A DNA stretch of 64,000 bases, taken from positions 2,294,001 to 2,358,000 of the forward strand of contig NZ_MTQN01000012.1 of assembly GCF_001984195.1 (NCBI RefSeq). Direction: 5' to 3'. This document shows, one piece after another, positions 1,991-9,441 of the stretch. Made by a program: the position numbers and the translations under genes. The notes below the pieces were generated by a model, which ran no database searches, was not told the DNA's origin, and was given only the letters and a program-made list of their open reading frames with translations. Origin of the DNA: Kribbella sp. ALI-6-A (GTDB lineage: Bacteria > Actinomycetota > Actinomycetes > Propionibacteriales > Kribbellaceae). Numbering within the stretch: the stretch's first letter is position 1; the number at the start of each line of letters is the position of its first letter.

Positions 1991-3385
1991 TCAGACGATC
2001 GCCCAGAGCAGCGCGGCCATCGCGAAGCCGGTCAGCGAGAGCACGGTCTCCAGCACCGACCAGGTCAGCAGGGTCTCCTTGACCGTCATGTTGAAGTACT
2101 TCGCGACGATCCAGAACCCGCCGTCGTTGACGTGGCTGAGGATGATGGAGCCGGCGCAGATGGCCGCGGCGATCAGGGCCAGATGGGCCTGGGAGTATCC
2201 GTCGGCGGTGAGCAGCGGACCGACGATGCCGCCGGTGGTGACGATGGCGACGGTGGCCGAGCCCTGGGCGATGCGCAGACCGCAGGAGATGACGTAGGCG
2301 AGCAGCAGGACGGGCAGACCCGCGCTGGACAGGCTCTTGGCCAGCGCGGCGCCGACGCCCGTCGCGGAGATGACGGCACCGAAGAAGGCACCGGCGCCGA
2401 CGACCAGCAGGATCATGCCGACCGGCTTGAGCGAGTTGCTGCTGAGCTCGCTGAACTCCGCGTTGGTCATGCCACGCCGTACGCCGAGCAGGTAGTAGGC
2501 GAGCAGGACCGCGATGAGCAGCGCGACGGCGGGATTGCCGAGGAAGGTCAGGACGCTGAGCAGATCGCGGTCGGGATCGAGAATGAGCGTGCCGAAGGTG
2601 GCGCCGAGGATCAGCACCAGCGGGAGCAGGATCACGCTCATCACCAGGGCCAGCGACGGCTCCGGCTTGGCGTCCTGCACGTCCTCCGCGGCGACGAACT
2701 CGTCCGGCACACTGACCGGGACGCGCGGCGCGATGTAGAGCGGCCAGAGCACGCCGGCGACGGCGAACGCGGGCAGACCGCAGGCCAGGCCGATGATGAT
2801 CAGCCAGCCCATGTCGACGTGCAGCAGCCCGGCGACCGCGGTCGGGCCAGGGTGCGGCGGCAGGAACGCGTGGGTCATCGAGAGCCCGGCGAGGACCGGC
2901 AGTGCGTACAGGACGAGCGACTTGCCGCCGCGCTTGGCCGCGACGTACACCAGCGGGGCGAGCACGAAGATGCCGATGTCGAAGAAGACCGGGATGCCGA
3001 AGATCAGGCCGACCAGGCCCATCGCGACCGGCGTGCCCTTGGGGCCGAACAGCCTGAGCAGCCGGCGGCTCAGCACGTCGGCGCCGCCGGATCGTTCGAG
3101 CAGCGCGCCGAGCACGGTGCCGAGGCCGATGATCACCGCGATGTGGCCGAGGATGCCGCCGAAGCCCTTCTCCAGCAGCGAATCGCTGGACTTCAGCGCC
3201 GTACCGACGATCGTGCGGACGTTCAGCCCGGCCGCCAGGGCCAGGAACAGGCTGGTGGCGAGCAGCGAGATGAACGGTTCGAGCTTGACCTTGATGATCA
3301 GGAACAGCAGCAGCGCGATCGCTACCACGCACAGCAGCAGCAGTCCTGGCGTGCTGGTGTGCAGCCAGTCGATGGCTTCGGACAT
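1991..3385 (-). CDS. GntP-family aldonate (gluconate-type) permease
   Basis: A 464-residue polytopic membrane protein of the GntP family (gluconate:H+ symporters and relatives). It carries the family hallmarks HAFLPPHPGPTAVAG and GIPVFFDIGIFVLAPLVY. The ATG at 3385 is preceded by a GGAG site; an upstream in-frame extension would have no good ribosome-binding site. It is the last gene of the leftward arm of the catabolic cluster, with an inverted repeat 32 nt upstream that shares its core with one in the divergent promoter region. GntP members import gluconate, ketogluconates, fructuronate or D-serine; from its neighbours I infer an amino-sugar acid such as N-acetyl-D-glucosaminate. Confidence 0.88.
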   Translation of the reverse strand: MSEAIDWLHTSTPGLLLLCVVAIALLLFLIIKVKLEPFISLLATSLFLALAAGLNVRTIVGTALKSSDSLLEKGFGGILGHIAVIIGLGTVLGALLERSGGADVLSRRLLRLFGPKGTPVAMGLVGLIFGIPVFFDIGIFVLAPLVYVAAKRGGKSLVLYALPVLAGLSMTHAFLPPHPGPTAVAGLLHVDMGWLIIIGLACGLPAFAVAGVLWPLYIAPRVPVSVPDEFVAAEDVQDAKPEPSLALVMSVILLPLVLILGATFGTLILDPDRDLLSVLTFLGNPAVALLIAVLLAYYLLGVRRGMTNAEFSELSSNSLKPVGMILLVVGAGAFFGAVISATGVGAALAKSLSSAGLPVLLLAYVISCGLRIAQGSATVAIVTTGGIVGPLLTADGYSQAHLALIAAAICAGSIILSHVNDGGFWIVAKYFNMTVKETLLTWSVLETVLSLTGFAMAALLWAIV

Positions 3386-3416
3386 GGGGGGACTCCGAGG
3401 GGTGGGTGGGATGAGA

Positions 3417-3438
3417 ACTGCGTTCGGGACAACGCAGT
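3417..3438. promoter_or_regulatory. Perfect inverted repeat, candidate IclR operator before the gntP-like gene
   Basis: ACTGCGTT (3417-3424) and AACGCAGT (3431-3438) are perfect inverted 8-mers with a 6-nt spacer. The dyad ends 32 nt upstream of the permease start. Its core TGCGT-N6-CAACG recurs with the same spacing at 7180-7195 in the divergent region. Binding by the IclR protein encoded at 8283-9017 is an inference. Confidence 0.6.
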
Positions 3439-3443
3439 GCAAC

Positions 3444-3465
3444 CGCCGTACGCGCGCGTACGGCG
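3444..3465. repeat. Perfect 22-nt palindrome between the aldolase and gntP-like genes
   Basis: The segment is self-complementary over all 22 bases (left half CGCCGTACGCG). It lies 47 nt past the stop of the leftward KDPG aldolase gene and 58 nt before the permease start. It has no T-run in the leftward direction. It could be a Rho-assisted terminator, a second operator, or part of the general CGTACG richness of this genome. Confidence 0.45.
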
Positions 3466-3511
3466 TGATCGCGCCGGCCTCACAGCGGGCCGGCGCGGTA
3501 CGGCTTCCGGG

Positions 3512-4141
3512 CTAGCGGAGGACGGCGCAGAAGGCCTTCGCCTTCTCGGTGATGCCGGCCCACTGGCCGTCGGCGACGTCGGTGGGGGAGACGACGTCGG
3601 TGCCGGCGCTGACCGCGAGCGCGCCGGCGTCGAGGAACGCGCGCGCGTTGCCCGCGTTCACCCCGCCGGACGGGACCAGCGCGACGCCGGGGAACGGGCC
3701 GCTCAGGTCCTTGAGGTACTTCGGGCCGAACTGGTGCGCCGGGAAGATCTTCACCGCGTCGGCGCCGAGCGCGATCGCGGTCATCACCTCGGACGGCGTG
3801 AGCGCGCCGAGCACGACCGGTACGCCGCCCGCCTGCGCCGCGGCGACCACCTCGGCCGCTTCCGGGCCCTGTCCTGGCGTGACCAGGAACTGCGCACCGG
3901 CCTCGACCGCCGTGCGCGCCTGGGCCGCGGTCTGCACGGTCCCGGCGCCGACGACGGCTCCGGTGTCGCCGAACGCGGCCCGCTCCAGGTGCCGGGGCAG
4001 GTCGGGGGTCGTGAAGGTCAGCTCGATCACGTGGATGCCGCCGGCAACCAGTGCGGAGCACAGGTCACGCGCGTCGCCGATCTCCGGGGCGCGGACGACG
4101 CTCAGCACGCGGTCGGTGCGCAGCAGGTCCAGGGTGGTCAT
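3512..4141 (-). CDS. eda: KDPG/KHG-type aldolase
   Basis: A 209-residue class I aldolase that cleaves 2-keto-3-deoxy-6-phosphogluconate to pyruvate and glyceraldehyde 3-phosphate. The Schiff-base lysine is K131 in VKIFPAHQFGPKYLK and the general acid/base glutamate is E40 in VIELTFTTP, both at the positions expected for the family, whose usual length is about 210. The ATG at 4141 has AAAGGA upstream. It lies 109 nt downstream of the deacylase gene in the same direction. It would supply the last step of the inferred glucosaminate route. Confidence 0.9.
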   Translation of the reverse strand: MTTLDLLRTDRVLSVVRAPEIGDARDLCSALVAGGIHVIELTFTTPDLPRHLERAAFGDTGAVVGAGTVQTAAQARTAVEAGAQFLVTPGQGPEAAEVVAAAQAGGVPVVLGALTPSEVMTAIALGADAVKIFPAHQFGPKYLKDLSGPFPGVALVPSGGVNAGNARAFLDAGALAVSAGTDVVSPTDVADGQWAGITEKAKAFCAVLR

Positions 4142-4250
4142 GCGGGGTCCTTTCGGTGGGGCGGGAAGATGGGGCCGGGGGGCGGCCGGTGTGCAGGGCA
4201 AGGGGGCGAGGTGGTCGTCCGTGCGCGGGTCAGGGCGCACTGGTGTCCGG

Positions 4251-5846
4251 TCAGGGCGCGCCGGCCGGCGTACGGCGGATCGCGCGGCCCGGCAGCGCGT
4301 CGGTGCGCTCGCCGTTCTCGATCACCGGGACACCGCCGACGAGAACCCACGGAATGCCCTCGGCCTGCCGGCGCGGCTCGGCGAACGTGGCGGTGTCCTT
4401 CACGGTCTCGGGATCGAAGAGCACCAGGTCGGCGTGGTATCCCTCGCGGATCAGGCCGCGGTCGGTCAGGCCGAGCCGGCGGGCGGGGCGACCGGTCAGG
4501 TGGTGGACGCAGTCGGCGAGTTCGAGGACGCCGAGCTCGCGGACGTAGTGGGCCAAGTAGCGCGGGAACGTCCCCCAGGCGCGTGGGTGCGGTTTGCCGC
4601 CGACGAGGATCGCGTCCGAGCCGCCGGTGTGGGTCGGGTGCTGCATGATCGCCCGCACGTTCTCCTCGTGGCCGACGTGCTGGAGGATCGTCGTGGCCAG
4701 GTTGTCGCGGACCAGTAGATCGAAGTAGACCCAGGACGGCGGTTTGCCGACGTCTTCGGCGAGCTCGGCGACCGTCTTGCCGACGGCGCCGGCCAGGTCG
4801 GGGTTCTTCACGCCGCCGATCTCGATGGTGTTCCACTCGGTCACGCAGCCGTGGCAGCCGTCGGTGCCGACCTGCTCCAGCTCGTGGGCGATGCGTTGCC
4901 GATCTTCGGGGTTCTGCAGCCGGGCCAGCAGGGCGTCCGGGCCGCCCTCGGCGGTCCAGCTGGGCAGGATCGCGGCGAGAGTTGTTGCTCCTGGCAAGTA
5001 CGGGTAGGTGTCGGTGGTGATGTCGACACCCTGGGCCAGGCCGTCGTCGATCATCGCGAGCAGGTCGACGCCGCGGCCGCGGTTCGGCGCGAAGTTCATC
5101 GTCGCGTGGGTGAGGTGGAGCGCGCAGCCGGAGCGTTCGGCGACGTCGATCATCTCGGCGTACGCGTCGAGGGCGCCCCGGCCGTACGAGCGCTGGTGTG
5201 GGCTGTAGTAACCGCCGTACCGGGCGACGACCTTGCAGAGCTCGACCAGCTCGTCGGTGGTCGCGAACATGCCCGGGGTGTAGGTCAGCCCGCTGCTCAT
5301 CCCGAGCGCGCCCTGCTCGAGTCCTTCCGCCAGCAGCCGTTTCATCTCGCCCAGCTCGGCGTCGGTGGCCGGGCGGTTCTCGGTGCCGACCACCATCATC
5401 CGCAAGGTCCCCTGCGGCACCAGGTACGCCGCGTTGCAGGCGATCCCTTGATCCAGCCGGTCCAGATAGCCCTGCACGGAGTCCCAGGAGAAGTCGAAGT
5501 CGTCCGGCTCGCCGTTCCACCCGGCGATCTGCCGGCGTACCGCCTGCCGGGTCGGGTCGTCGATCGGCGCGAACGACAGGCCGTCCTGGCCCAGCACCTC
5601 CAGGGTGACCCCTTGGCTGACCTTCGCGGTGTGATCCGGGTTGGCGAGGATCTGCAGATCCGAATGCGCGTGCATGTCGATGAACCCAGGCGCCAGCACC
5701 AGCCCTTGGGCGTCGATGGTCCTTCGAGCCGGCGCGGCTTGACCGATGACGGTGATCCGCCCGTCGTCGACGGTGACATCGGCGCTGTACGCCGGGGCGC
5801 CGGTGCCGTCCAGGACCGTGGCGTTGAGGATCTGCAGGTCGGTCAT
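4251..5846 (-). CDS. N-acyl-D-amino-acid deacylase (amidohydrolase family)
   Basis: A 531-residue zinc amidohydrolase of the D-aminoacylase group, with the metal-binding motif DMHAHSDLQ near residue 70 and a typical small N-terminal beta domain (LQILNATVLDGTG). The family hydrolyses N-acyl-D-amino acids to the free D-amino acid and a carboxylate in the cytoplasm. Its ATG overlaps the upstream deaminase stop by one base (TGATG), showing translational coupling. N-acetyl-D-glucosaminate is formally an N-acyl-D-amino acid, so in this context it may be the deacetylase of that sugar acid; the specificity is an inference. Confidence 0.88.
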   Translation of the reverse strand: MTDLQILNATVLDGTGAPAYSADVTVDDGRITVIGQAAPARRTIDAQGLVLAPGFIDMHAHSDLQILANPDHTAKVSQGVTLEVLGQDGLSFAPIDDPTRQAVRRQIAGWNGEPDDFDFSWDSVQGYLDRLDQGIACNAAYLVPQGTLRMMVVGTENRPATDAELGEMKRLLAEGLEQGALGMSSGLTYTPGMFATTDELVELCKVVARYGGYYSPHQRSYGRGALDAYAEMIDVAERSGCALHLTHATMNFAPNRGRGVDLLAMIDDGLAQGVDITTDTYPYLPGATTLAAILPSWTAEGGPDALLARLQNPEDRQRIAHELEQVGTDGCHGCVTEWNTIEIGGVKNPDLAGAVGKTVAELAEDVGKPPSWVYFDLLVRDNLATTILQHVGHEENVRAIMQHPTHTGGSDAILVGGKPHPRAWGTFPRYLAHYVRELGVLELADCVHHLTGRPARRLGLTDRGLIREGYHADLVLFDPETVKDTATFAEPRRQAEGIPWVLVGGVPVIENGERTDALPGRAIRRTPAGAP

Positions 5847-7150
5847 CAGAAGAACGTCCGGACCAGATCCACGACCACCGGGTCGGCGGCGTCCGGATCG
5901 TCGATGACCGGGATCAGGCCCCACTTGTCGAACGCGGTGCAGGGATGCGACAGCCCGACGCGCAGCTCGTCGCCGATGACCACCGGAGGTTCGCCCTCGA
6001 AGGTGAGGAAGCCGTGCTGGTCGTTGAGCTTTCTGACGGTCATGCCCGTGAGCGGAGTGGGGGAGTCGCCCTCGGCGCGTGGGCGGAGGAGCTGCGGCTC
6101 GGGCATGCCCTCGTCGAAGGGCAGGTCGCGTTTGCCGGCGTCGAAGATGGCCAGGCCTGGTTCGGGTTGCGAGGTGATGCGGACCCAGCCGTGCATCGAG
6201 GGGATCAGGCGGTCGCCGTCGGTGCGGGGTGCGGAGCCGAGGGGAGAGATCTGCCGGTAGTAGCCGTCGTCGTGGGCGATGTAGGCGCCGGAACGGAGAA
6301 CGACCCGGGCGGCGGGAGCAAGGGGACCGAGGACCTTCGCGACCTGCTCGAAGTAGGCACTGCCGCCTGCGCTGACCACCGGAGTCAGACCGTCTTCGTA
6401 GAGATCGGTGAGCTTGGCGTGGACGTCGGCAAGCGACCGCAGGTACGCGCGGACGTGCTCCAGCCCGGCCTCGTCGGCGCCGTGAGCGATGGCGCCTTCG
6501 TACCCGGCGACCCCGGCGAGGCGGAGGGTGGACGCCGAGGCGATGGCCTGCCCGACCGCGACGGCGGTCTCGGCATCGCGAGCGCCCGTCCGGCCCTGCG
6601 CTCCACCGATCTCGACCAGGACGTCGAGCGGCCGCGCGTCCGGCCCGACGTACGCGGATCGCGCCGCTTCGAGCTGTTCGACAGTGCGGACGGAGTCGGC
6701 CCAGACCAGCACCTCGAACTCAGGGTCGGCCGCCAGTTCGTCGGCGATCCAGCGCAGTTGCAGCGGGGAGATCACCGCGTTCGCGACCATCACCCGCCGT
6801 ACGCCGAACGTCCGGGCGACGCCGAGCTGGAACCCGTTGGCCAGCGTGATCGCCCACGCGCCCGCGTCGAGCTGCGCGGCCCACAGCGCCGGCGCCATCG
6901 TCGTCTTGCCGTGCGGTGCCAGCTCGACGCCGTGGTCGGCACACCACCGGGCCATGGTCGCGACGTTGTGCCGCATCCCCGGCCCGGACAGGGTCAGCAG
7001 GGGAGTCGGCAGCTGCGACAGTCGCGGCCGGTCGGCGAGGATCTCGCGCACGGTCCGGCCCCACCACGCCGGCGGCAACGCCTTGTCCTGCCAGCTGACC
7101 GGCTGGTCCGCGAGGGCTGCGACCGCGGCGGCGTCGTAGGAAGCTGACAT
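5846..7150 (-). CDS. Fold-type III PLP amino-acid deaminase/dehydratase (D-serine or D-glucosaminate dehydratase-like)
   Basis: A 434-residue protein of the alanine-racemase-barrel group that includes metal-dependent D-serine dehydratase and low-specificity D-threonine aldolase. The PLP lysine is about K82 in LAPHGKTTMAP and the C-terminal metal site is SHPCTAFDKW (His, Cys). The ATG at 7150 has GGAGGAACC upstream. It is the first gene of the leftward operon. D-glucosaminate dehydratase, which forms 2-keto-3-deoxygluconate plus ammonia, is a metal-stimulated PLP enzyme. Co-occurrence with a KDG-type kinase, KDPG aldolase and RidA makes that activity more likely than plain D-serine deamination. 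Confidence 0.85.
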   Translation of the reverse strand: MSASYDAAAVAALADQPVSWQDKALPPAWWGRTVREILADRPRLSQLPTPLLTLSGPGMRHNVATMARWCADHGVELAPHGKTTMAPALWAAQLDAGAWAITLANGFQLGVARTFGVRRVMVANAVISPLQLRWIADELAADPEFEVLVWADSVRTVEQLEAARSAYVGPDARPLDVLVEIGGAQGRTGARDAETAVAVGQAIASASTLRLAGVAGYEGAIAHGADEAGLEHVRAYLRSLADVHAKLTDLYEDGLTPVVSAGGSAYFEQVAKVLGPLAPAARVVLRSGAYIAHDDGYYRQISPLGSAPRTDGDRLIPSMHGWVRITSQPEPGLAIFDAGKRDLPFDEGMPEPQLLRPRAEGDSPTPLTGMTVRKLNDQHGFLTFEGEPPVVIGDELRVGLSHPCTAFDKWGLIPVIDDPDAADPVVVDLVRTFF

Positions 7151-7272
7151 CGGCTGGTTCCTCCAGAAACTGGGCTGATTGCGTAGAATGCAACGACCGT
7201 TGCGCATTCTGACCACTCGGTTGTAGCATCGCGCCAGAACTCCCGTCAACGGACTGCGAGAGAGGACACCTC
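7151..7272. promoter_or_regulatory. Divergent promoter region with IclR-type operator candidates
   Basis: This 122-nt gap separates the leftward deaminase operon from the rightward kinase-iclR-ridA genes. TGCGT (7180-7184) and CAACG (7191-7195) repeat the gntP-operator core at the same spacing. GCAACG (7190-7195) and CGTTGC (7198-7203) form a perfect inverted repeat, which extends imperfectly to AGAATG at 7185 and CATTCT at 7205-7210. The region is less GC-rich than the genes around it. I cannot place exact -10 and -35 boxes. Confidence 0.6.
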
Positions 7273-8286
7273 ATGGTCGACCCGGTGCCCCGCGCGGTCT
7301 GTCTCGGGGAGGCGATGATCATGCTGGCGGCCGACACCGGTGCGCCGCTCGAGGATGTCGAGACCTTCCGCCGTTCGGTCGGCGGCGCCGAGTGCAACGT
7401 GGCCGGCGGACTGGCCGCGCTCGGCATCCCGACCGGCTGGATCTCCCGCGTCGGCGCCGACGGGTTCGGCCGGTACGTGCTGCGGGATCTGCAGGCCCGC
7501 AACGTCGACGTCGGCGGCGTCGAGGACGACCCGCTGCGACCGACCGGCCTCTACGTGAAGCACACGCTGGCCGGCCGGACCCGGATGCACTACTACCGCT
7601 CGGGCTCGGCCGCCGCCGCGATGGACCCCGGCTTCCTCGACCGCCCGGCCGTCCGCAACCGGCTGGCCGGCGCCGAACTCGTCCACACCACCGGCATCAC
7701 CGCGGCCATCTCCACCTCGGCGGCCGCGATGCTCGACCGTCTGGCCGCACTTCGCGACACCCTCGGCTTCGTCCTCAGCGTCGACCTCAACTGGCGCCCG
7801 GCGTTGTGGCGGGACAAGGATCCCGCCCCGCTGTGGCGATTGCTGCGCGCGGCGGACGTGATCCTGATCGGCGCGGACGAGGCGATGCTCTTCGCCGGTA
7901 CCAGTGACCCGGCCGAGCTGCGCGCGTTGTTGGGGCCAAGGGCAACCATCTTGGTGAAGTCGGACGCGCACGTCGCGCTCGCACTCGAGCCGGGCGCCGA
8001 AGAGCGACGGACCGAGGTGCCCGCCCTGACGGTCGATGTGGTCGAGCCGGTCGGAGCGGGAGACGCCTTTGCCGCCGGCTACCTGGCCGCGACCCTGCAG
8101 GGCTTGCCGATGGAGCAGCGACTGCGCTCCGGACACCTGAGCGCCGCCGCGGTGCTCGCCGTGCCGGACGACCACGCCGCACCGCCGGAGCCCGCCGTAC
8201 GACGGGCGCTGCTGGAGTGTTCGGCACAGGAGTGGGCCGAGACGCGGGTCGGTCCGATGGGTGTCAGTGTCGGAGGTCTGGTGTGA
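7273..8286 (+). CDS. PfkB-family sugar kinase, probable 2-keto-3-deoxygluconate kinase
   Basis: A 337-residue ribokinase-fold enzyme. PfkB signature 1 is seen as VGGAECNVAGGLAALG (about residues 36-51), and signature 2 as PVGAGDAFAAGYL with the catalytic base D264. Length and domain order fit KDG kinases (KdgK), which make KDPG for the aldolase encoded at 3512-4141. The ATG at 7273 has GAGAGG upstream. The iclR gene overlaps its stop by 4 nt (GTGA). Other PfkB substrates cannot be excluded from sequence alone. Confidence 0.85.
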   Translation: MVDPVPRAVCLGEAMIMLAADTGAPLEDVETFRRSVGGAECNVAGGLAALGIPTGWISRVGADGFGRYVLRDLQARNVDVGGVEDDPLRPTGLYVKHTLAGRTRMHYYRSGSAAAAMDPGFLDRPAVRNRLAGAELVHTTGITAAISTSAAAMLDRLAALRDTLGFVLSVDLNWRPALWRDKDPAPLWRLLRAADVILIGADEAMLFAGTSDPAELRALLGPRATILVKSDAHVALALEPGAEERRTEVPALTVDVVEPVGAGDAFAAGYLAATLQGLPMEQRLRSGHLSAAAVLAVPDDHAAPPEPAVRRALLECSAQEWAETRVGPMGVSVGGLV

Positions 8287-9017
8287 GTCAGAGTCTGGGC
8301 CGAGCCCTGCAGATCCTGGTCAGCCTCGGCGAGGGCGACCGGTCGCTCGATCAGTTGGCGACCGAGCTCGACGTGCACAAGACGACCGTGCTGCGCCTGC
8401 TGCGCACGATGGAGGCCGAACGCTTCGTACGGCGTGACGAAGCGCATCGCTACCGGCTCGGCTCGCGGCTGTTCTCGCTGGCCGACGCGGCCCGCGAGCA
8501 GCACGTCGTACGGGCTGTTGCCGCGCCGCATCTGCGTCAGCTGAACCAGCGGACCGGCCAGACCGTGCACCTCGCGGCGTACGAGAACGGGCAGGTCATC
8601 TACATCGACAAGCTCGACAGCGTGCAGTCGGTCCGGATGTACTCCCAGGTCGGCGTCCCGGCGGCACTGCACTGTACGGCGGTCGGCAAGGTGCTGCTCG
8701 CGGCCCAGCCGAAGCGCCAGCGCGAGGCGTTGCTCGGCACGATCGAGTACCACCGGTTCACGCCGAACACGATCACCGGACCGGACCAGTTGCGCGACGA
8801 GCTGGACAAGGTCCGGGCGCAGGGCTGGGCGCAGGACCGGGCCGAGCACGAGTCGTTCATCAACTGCATCGGCGCCCCGATCACCGAGCGCTCCGGCCGG
8901 GTGGTCGGCGCGGTCTCGATCTCGGTACCCGACGTCCTGCTGAACTACGAGCAGGTGCTCGAGCTCCTGCCCGACCTGCTCGCCACCACGGCCGCCATCG
9001 GCGTGGACTACCACTAG
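8283..9017 (+). CDS. IclR-family transcriptional regulator
   Basis: A 244-residue regulator with an N-terminal winged helix-turn-helix (LATELDVHKTTVLRLLRTME) and a C-terminal GAF-like effector domain ending in VVGAVSISVPDVLL, the usual IclR plan and length. I chose the GTG at 8283, which overlaps the kinase stop as GTGA and has GGAGG at 8272-8276; a start at 8217 would lie deep inside the kinase gene. IclR proteins often repress sugar-acid and aromatic catabolism and respond to pathway intermediates. It is the obvious candidate to bind the inverted repeats at 3417-3438 and 7180-7210. Confidence 0.9.
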   Translation: MSQSLGRALQILVSLGEGDRSLDQLATELDVHKTTVLRLLRTMEAERFVRRDEAHRYRLGSRLFSLADAAREQHVVRAVAAPHLRQLNQRTGQTVHLAAYENGQVIYIDKLDSVQSVRMYSQVGVPAALHCTAVGKVLLAAQPKRQREALLGTIEYHRFTPNTITGPDQLRDELDKVRAQGWAQDRAEHESFINCIGAPITERSGRVVGAVSISVPDVLLNYEQVLELLPDLLATTAAIGVDYH

Positions 9018-9036: not shown

Positions 9037-9441
9037 ATGTCCGACAAGACCGCCGTTTCCACCCCCGACGCGCCCGCCCCGATGCCGGTGTTCTCCCAGG
9101 GCGTGCGCAAGGGCAACATCCTGCAGGTCTCCGGCCAGGGCTCGGTCGACCCCGCGACCGGTTCGTTCGTGCACGAGGGCGACGTGAAGGCGCAGACCAC
9201 CCGGGTGCTGCAGAACATCGAGGCGATCCTGAAGGCCGGCGGCGCGAGCTTCGACGACGTGCTGATGCTGCGCGTCTACCTGACCTCGCGCGACCTGTTC
9301 ACGCCGATGAACGAGGCGTACGCCGAGTTCGTCGGCGCGCGCACCCCGAGCGGCGTGCTGCCGTCGCGCACGACGGTCTTCACCGGTCTGCCGCGCGAGG
9401 AGATGCTGGTCGAGATCGACGCGCTCGCCGTTCTGTCCTGA
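9037..9441 (+). CDS. RidA-family enamine/imine deaminase
   Basis: A 134-residue YjgF/YER057c/UK114 protein. The substrate-anchoring arginine is R111 in LPSRTTVF, equivalent to R105 of E. coli RidA, and the family end motif is EMLVEIDALAV. RidA proteins hydrolyse reactive enamine/imine intermediates released by PLP-dependent dehydratases. An AGAGAGG ribosome-binding site precedes the ATG and the gene sits 19 nt after iclR. Its presence supports a PLP dehydratase in the pathway, since the fold-III enzyme would generate exactly such intermediates. Confidence 0.88.
   Translation: MSDKTAVSTPDAPAPMPVFSQGVRKGNILQVSGQGSVDPATGSFVHEGDVKAQTTRVLQNIEAILKAGGASFDDVLMLRVYLTSRDLFTPMNEAYAEFVGARTPSGVLPSRTTVFTGLPREEMLVEIDALAVLS

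Follow-up and report, generated by a model that had tools for sequence, protein, structure and literature searches.

How does a transporter gene come under the same control as the enzyme genes beside it? The question is raised by 64,000 nucleotides of the soil bacterium Kribbella sp. ALI-6-A (contig NZ_MTQN01000012.1, positions 2,294,001 to 2,358,000), called the window below, which hold a seven-gene cluster. The genes gntP (a permease), eda, ongB (an OngB-like amidohydrolase) and ongC (an OngC-like deaminase) lie on the minus strand and are separated by a gap of 122 bp from kdgK, iclR and ridA on the plus strand. A sequence-only reading had proposed that gntP carries its own copy of an IclR operator, TGCGT-N6-CAACG, shared with the ongC-kdgK promoter region. 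Our comparison of relatives points instead to a single tandem IclR operator at 7179-7214, to control of gntP through its operon and to a stem-loop nature of the dyads in the eda-gntP gap, a combination to which we assign a probability of about 85%.

The tandem element between ongC and kdgK

The ongC-kdgK gap contains two boxes (Table 1) with six bases between them and centres 21 bp apart, and the whole conserved element reads TTGC-N7-GCAA-N6-TTGC (7179-7203). The Kribbella set comprised 38 genomes including the window's own; the cluster was taken from the other 37 and from other loci of Actinomycetota. The tandem pattern was derived from Kribbella and then applied to the other loci as a test, and an orthologue of the IclR protein was counted where tblastn gave 45% identity or more, on the divergent strand and no more than 3.5 kb away. 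The element is present in all 38 Kribbella genomes and in all 50 loci of other actinobacteria where an IclR orthologue is divergently encoded; its exact form was found in just 2 of the 35 loci lacking such an orthologue and in 1 of 17600 resampled upstream regions. The twelve pattern bases and the 21-bp spacing are identical in 88/88 loci. Outside the pattern, place 7 of box 2 is A and place 12 is G (80/88 each), and the other columns are free to vary.

These counts cover 124 loci (the window, L039-L098 and L114-L178 less L119 and L123), or 123 after removal of L132, which comes from the same genome as L077. L099-L113, L119 and L123 had been excluded beforehand, all 17 of those compared being apparent duplicates of genomes already counted; L181-L191 and 6 of the 29 matched non-Kribbella genomes are also outside the count. 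The public name of the L113 record, Streptomyces sp. SID13031, is probably wrong, as the record appears to correspond to G027, a genome of the genus Kribbella.

The strict tandem pattern matches once in each of the 38 Kribbella genomes, always at ongC, and the regulator thus looks local; a wider regulon was considered and discarded. The loose form of the pattern yields 69 matches over these genomes (summed by hand). A position weight matrix (PWM) built from the 50 non-Kribbella loci gives scores of 17.6 for box 1 of the window and 8.7 for its box 2. The presumed ligand is encoded just downstream of kdgK and belongs to the IclR family (PF09339, 40.3 bits with a cut-off of 22; PF01614, 164.7 bits with a cut-off of 24). 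Residues H32, K33, T35, R38 and L39 of its helix-turn-helix are invariant in 88/88 orthologues, and mean conservation is 0.79 for residues 1-62 vs 0.72 for the rest, a modest difference. Very probably, the ongC-kdgK divergent promoter region carries an IclR-type operator.

Box 2 also contains the -35 hexamer of a predicted kdgK-iclR-ridA promoter. A TANNNT hexamer follows the box-2 hexamer after 17 or 18 nt in 88/88 loci, as against 5.9% of shuffled flanks when any spacing of 16-19 nt is accepted. This overlap with a conserved -35/-10 pair in every locus is what one would expect if the element were bound by another factor or were merely a conserved promoter, the neighbouring IclR protein not being its ligand. 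However, box 1 is palindromic and lies outside the -35/-10 pair, and 33 of the 35 loci that have no IclR gene nearby lack the exact element, although these form a weak control. In addition, a box adjoins the relocated iclR relative of genome G483. We therefore consider a different ligand unlikely and retain the IclR protein as the probable one.

The loci without a neighbouring IclR include some instructive exceptions. In L126, which has the tandem site, the sequence ends before the position of iclR. Marinactinospora (L121, genome G483) has the tandem site at ongC and no IclR was found near this gene; its best IclR relative (43%) is encoded elsewhere, divergent to a kdgK relative, and the interval between the two contains one TTGC-N7-GCAA box, TTGCAATATGCGCAA, without an exact second TTGC. 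In Murinocardiopsis (L120), an IclR and kdgK pair likewise lies elsewhere, with two one-mismatch boxes in between. Three one-mismatch matches were counted at that locus vs 0.72 expected, a number reached by 10 of 200 shuffles.

In the mechanism that we propose, two IclR dimers (a tetramer) would occupy boxes 1 and 2 on one face of the DNA, the distance of 21 bp between centres amounting to two helical turns. At box 2, the protein would block the kdgK-iclR-ridA promoter by covering its -35 hexamer. It would very probably cover the ongC promoter as well, which must be close because just 28 bases separate box 1 from the ongC start codon. A pathway intermediate, namely 2-keto-3-deoxygluconate (KDG), its 6-phosphate (KDPG) or glucosaminate, would then release the regulator.

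gntP and the dyads ahead of it

The observations behind the proposed gntP operator are largely correct. The word TGCGT-N6-CAACG occurs at 3419-3434 and 7180-7195 on the same strand and at no other place in the window, and its first copy lies within a perfect 8-bp dyad, ACTGCGTT-N6-AACGCAGT (3417-3438). The dyad GCAACG-AC-CGTTGC reported beside the second copy is also there, at 7190-7203, where the right half of box 1 faces the left half of box 2. The eda-gntP gap does contain a palindrome, the length of the gap being 126 nt (3386-3511) rather than 125. With identical 5+5 letters at identical spacing, both intergenic and one of them within a perfect dyad, the two sites might be copies of one IclR operator, gntP being under its own copy.

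The relatives argue otherwise. The word is present in just 19/88 divergent regions and takes as constant what is in fact the variable centre of box 1; at 7180-7195 it is a by-product overlapping the larger site, and the gntP copy has no such conserved element. The sequence-only reading had named a lack of the motif in orthologous clusters as grounds for its refutation, and for the gntP site this lack is what we observed: among 40 gntP gaps, the word was found in that of the window and is missing from the other 39, including that of the sister species, and the box was found in none. The PWM trained without Kribbella scores the gntP dyad at -3.2 vs a shuffled-gap mean of -3.7, far from the values of boxes 1 and 2, and the best score over the whole gap, -0.3, is reached by 18.2% of shuffled gaps. 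Among the 36 of the 40 gntP gaps that have at least 20 nt, two score above 0 (L160, 4.1; L161, 3.7), the lowest Kribbella box 2 being at 5.4. Common gapped words also arise readily: at least one 5+5 word with a spacing of 3-12 is common to first-order resampled pairs of both gaps in 20.7% of 2000 trials and to random pairs of window segments in 49.6% of cases. The window's own genome (8.1 Mb) contains 14 matches to TGCGT-N6-CAACG vs 24 to the reversed pattern used as a control. The shared word is no more than chance, and we rejected an operator copy at gntP, which is highly improbable in the light of the relatives, the PWM and the chance controls.

The gntP dyad could also be a weak, lineage-specific IclR site, newly gained in the window species or in the species pair that it forms with its sister (genome G010). 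Aligned with box 1 of the window, the sequence CTGCGTTCGGGACAACG has both TGCGT and CAA at matching positions, but each half-site lacks one base that is fixed in 88 loci (CTGC, ACAA). Moreover, the dyad of the sister species has changed exactly at the TT/AA positions, with loss of the CAACG word. A recent gain of this kind hardly seems credible.

The idea of one IclR regulon survives in another form: the operator in the divergent promoter region and the inclusion of gntP both very probably hold, without an operator of its own before gntP. In 40 gntP loci, the upstream same-strand neighbour is eda (37/40) or the deacylase gene (3/40), and for this reason membership of the operon is the simplest link between gntP and the enzymes. 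The gap upstream of gntP has a median length of 33.5 nt (as measured from alignment ends), and six gaps exceed 100 nt, that of the window included. gntP would thus come under control as the gene that ends the row ongC-ongB-eda-gntP.

A close gntP orthologue was found in 9/38 Kribbella genomes, always after eda, and four further genomes have only relatives at 42-44% identity. In L051 (genome G018), the gntP match is split near residue 52 into two parts that lie in different frames, which looks like a frameshift in the species or in the assembly. The 29/38 Kribbella genomes without a close gntP orthologue include those of L040-L043. No obvious transporter follows eda among the mechanically called open reading frames of eight loci lacking gntP, as inspected by eye without a family search, and uptake may occur via another system in such Kribbella.

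Three dyads lie within the 126 nt of the window's eda-gntP gap (Table 1), and its RNA fold has a z score of -3.33, with 1 of 200 shuffles as good. The gap of G010 is similar in length and has two dyads and a z score of -4.26. In the gntP-proximal dyad, the loop and the outer stem are the same in both species, and two inner pairs, T-A and T-A in the window, are G-C and C-G in G010. Because both sides of these pairs changed together, it is the pairing rather than a sequence read by a protein that appears to have been kept, which suggests an intercistronic RNA hairpin and not an operator. In the window species and its sister, the dyads would most likely be mRNA stem-loops that set the processing or the relative level of gntP. 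We also considered a repeated element and dropped it, as the hairpin pattern in its exact form has no occurrence outside the window and G010; allowing up to two mismatches gives scattered matches in 36/38 genomes.

Several points weigh against our reading of the locus. The hairpin proposal relies on a single comparison, that of two related genomes, and an 8-bp dyad of this type is present in 27 of 1014 half-overlapping segments of the window. These two points, together with the finding of no terminator-like T-run, would suit dyads that are chance structures or terminator remnants without a role. Three dyads in one short gap, the z scores of both species and two both-sided changes that preserve pairing speak against this; we regard the absence of a role as possible but doubtful, and still prefer stem-loops. 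With other Kribbella included in the PWM, the top-scoring word that overlaps the gntP dyad takes place 89 among the 63986 positions of the window under the palindromic model, in favour of a shared operator, and place 323 under the model of both boxes; in either case it stays far below the real boxes. A lone box is not rarer than chance, since TTGCR-N5-YGCAA occurs at 9 places in the window's genome vs 14 for the reversed control; by these counts, specificity belongs to the tandem form and not to the single box. Furthermore, the Kribbella loci are mutually related, and most of the 50 other loci were drawn from the 80 best among 562 relatives, which favours closer ones. The negative control is weak, as 22 of its 35 loci are distant relatives with other gene settings, and Murinocardiopsis, scored as a miss, has GTGC-N7-GCAA-N6-TTGC ahead of ongC, at one mismatch. 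Across the loci, we saw by our own reading no single conserved form of an ongC -10 hexamer. Finally, a simple scan of E. coli type found no promoter in either gap and no terminator for gntP; this is weak evidence that leaves room for a gntP promoter, as the scan missed the kdgK promoter too.

The gene cluster and related systems

Table 1. Features of the cluster and of its two intergenic gaps (window positions)
Feature	Position	Strand	Basis or remark
GntP-family permease (gntP)	1991..3385	-	TIGR00791 above its cut-off; next same-strand gene after eda
Perfect 8-bp dyad, 6-nt loop, ahead of gntP, read as an RNA stem-loop	3417..3438	-	pairing kept in sister G010
Perfect 22-nt palindrome, eda-gntP gap	3444..3465	-	sequence
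10-bp stem, 8-nt loop, just after eda	3470..3497	-	sequence
KHG/KDPG aldolase (eda)	3512..4141	-	TIGR01182 above its cut-off
D-aminoacylase/GlcNAc1A-deacetylase-like amidohydrolase, OngB-like (ongB)	4251..5846	-	homology only
OngC-like deaminase (ongC), D-serine-dehydratase domain	5846..7150	-	Pfam PF14031 above cut-off; weak BhcC match
Candidate operator box 1, TTGCGTAGAATGCAA, palindrome TTGC-N7-GCAA	7179..7193	.	all 38 Kribbella and all 50 other divergent-IclR loci
Candidate operator box 2, TTGCGCATTCTGACC, intact in its left half but degenerate in its right	7200..7214	+	conservation; PWM without Kribbella 8.7
Predicted kdgK-iclR-ridA promoter: -35 TTGCGC (7200-7205), 18-nt spacer, -10 TAGCAT (7224-7229)	7200..7229	+	-35 inside box 2
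PfkB-family kinase, KDG-kinase-like (kdgK)	7273..8286	+	Pfam PfkB
IclR-family regulator (iclR), presumed ligand of boxes 1 and 2	8283..9017	+	Pfam HTH_IclR and IclR_C above gathering scores
RidA-like protein (ridA)	9037..9441	+	TIGR00004, 97.9 bits, slightly under cut-off of 106.25

The stop codon of kdgK is overlapped by the start codon of iclR (GTGA, 8283-8286), which suggests that kinase and regulator are translationally coupled. The top NCBIfam model for the kinase is that of the KDG/KDGal kinase (152.1 bits, cut-off 400). The IclR protein scores under the cut-off of every NCBIfam model that it matches. The nearest one is KdgR, a gamma-proteobacterial IclR-family regulator of, by its name, KDG-related catabolism; the score is 165.5 bits vs a cut-off of 275, and PMC8222616 (Table 1) gives a different motif for KdgR. 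BhcR, of the same family, comes second, and the adjoining deaminase weakly matches BhcC (84.2 bits, cut-off 690), but the regulator reaches only 159.2 bits vs a cut-off of 350 for BhcR.

Published IclR operators include a class GTT-11-AAC with the consensus GTTYCRYW3RYGRAAC and tandem centres often 18-22 nt apart (PMC8222616, here and below as far as the available part of that article goes). The 17-bp palindrome of our loci, mostly RTTGCRN-AWT-NYGCAAY, agrees in most columns with the operators of this group 1 of IclR regulators, the 21-bp spacing falls within their range in 88/88 loci, and the subgroup is rich in sugar and sugar-acid genes (PMC8222616). The centres of boxes 1 and 2 lie 36 nt from the ongC start and 66 nt from the kdgK start, within the zone of -20 to -80 given there. 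In contrast to the consensus, which has Y/R at position 4 and its mirror, our loci have G/C (88/88, these bases being part of the pattern used for scoring the loci), and the right half of the second box is degenerate. The predicted operator is of an ordinary kind and unusually well conserved. No description of the operator of this actinobacterial cluster was found in the titles and opening parts of abstracts covered, a scope outside which lie the supplements of PMC8222616, a possible source.

The marine ong pathway for GlcNAc1A proceeds by deacetylation, deamination to KDG and phosphorylation to KDPG (PMC9537276, in its available part, as for the comparison that follows). As in the ong cluster of Pseudoalteromonas prydzensis, genes for a deacetylase, a deaminase, a KDG kinase, RidA and a local regulator are clustered in the window, an assignment by homology only, with the kdgK and ridA products scoring under NCBIfam cut-offs. 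The P. prydzensis cluster differs in having OngR, a MurR/RpiR regulator, and an SSS transporter, whereas IclR and GntP, plus an aldolase, are encoded here. The cluster is like that of the GlcNAc1A (oxidised-chitin) pathway, with a different regulator and a different transporter. In phmmer scores, taken without a tree, the deacylase is not closer to PpOngB (9kb1, 218.3 bits) than to a D-aminoacylase (1m7j, 256.2 bits). For this reason, the likely substrate, an oxidised amino-sugar, is deduced from the company of a KDG kinase and a KDPG aldolase. The available main text of PMC9537276 and PMC12017989 contains no word starting with 'actino'. A gluconate permease and a KDPG aldolase are also encoded beside gluconokinase and glucose-6-phosphate dehydrogenase genes (PMC5327559); judging by the accessible part of that article, this is apparently a different Entner-Doudoroff set.

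Some other genomic matches deserve mention. TTGCGYATTCTG has two matches in the window's genome, the second of them ahead of a gene for a ROK-family-like regulator (assigned by eye, without a family search). Among 11 further places retrieved from other Kribbella, those of G003 and G010 have the same neighbour genes and that of G009 has a very similar sequence; the remaining eight are in a different setting, G015 and G018 being alike. The operator-box-like sequence TTGCGTATTCTGCG precedes the ROK-like gene in the window's genome (L179:1501-1512, G000:C7:367258), in G003 and in G010, with a very similar sequence in G009 (further loci L221, L223 and L224). It may be one more IclR site or belong to an unrelated promoter. 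A pattern distinct from the operator, TTGCC-N5-GGCAA-N6-TTGC, recurs in 20/38 Kribbella genomes (hand count; for example, G000:C6:162576-162600).

The case shows that a gapped word common to two promoters misleads when relatives are left uncompared. What replaces it is a precise, testable predicted operator for an uncharacterised IclR regulator across many actinobacterial genera, together with a pointer to a likely oxidised amino-sugar pathway in them. Tentatively, the oxidised ends of chitin may be used by many soil Actinomycetota by means of a cluster under one dedicated IclR repressor, with a single tandem operator in each genome, a system that would have evolved independently of the marine OngR, and intercistronic hairpins might tune the transporter's share of the operon in one species pair.

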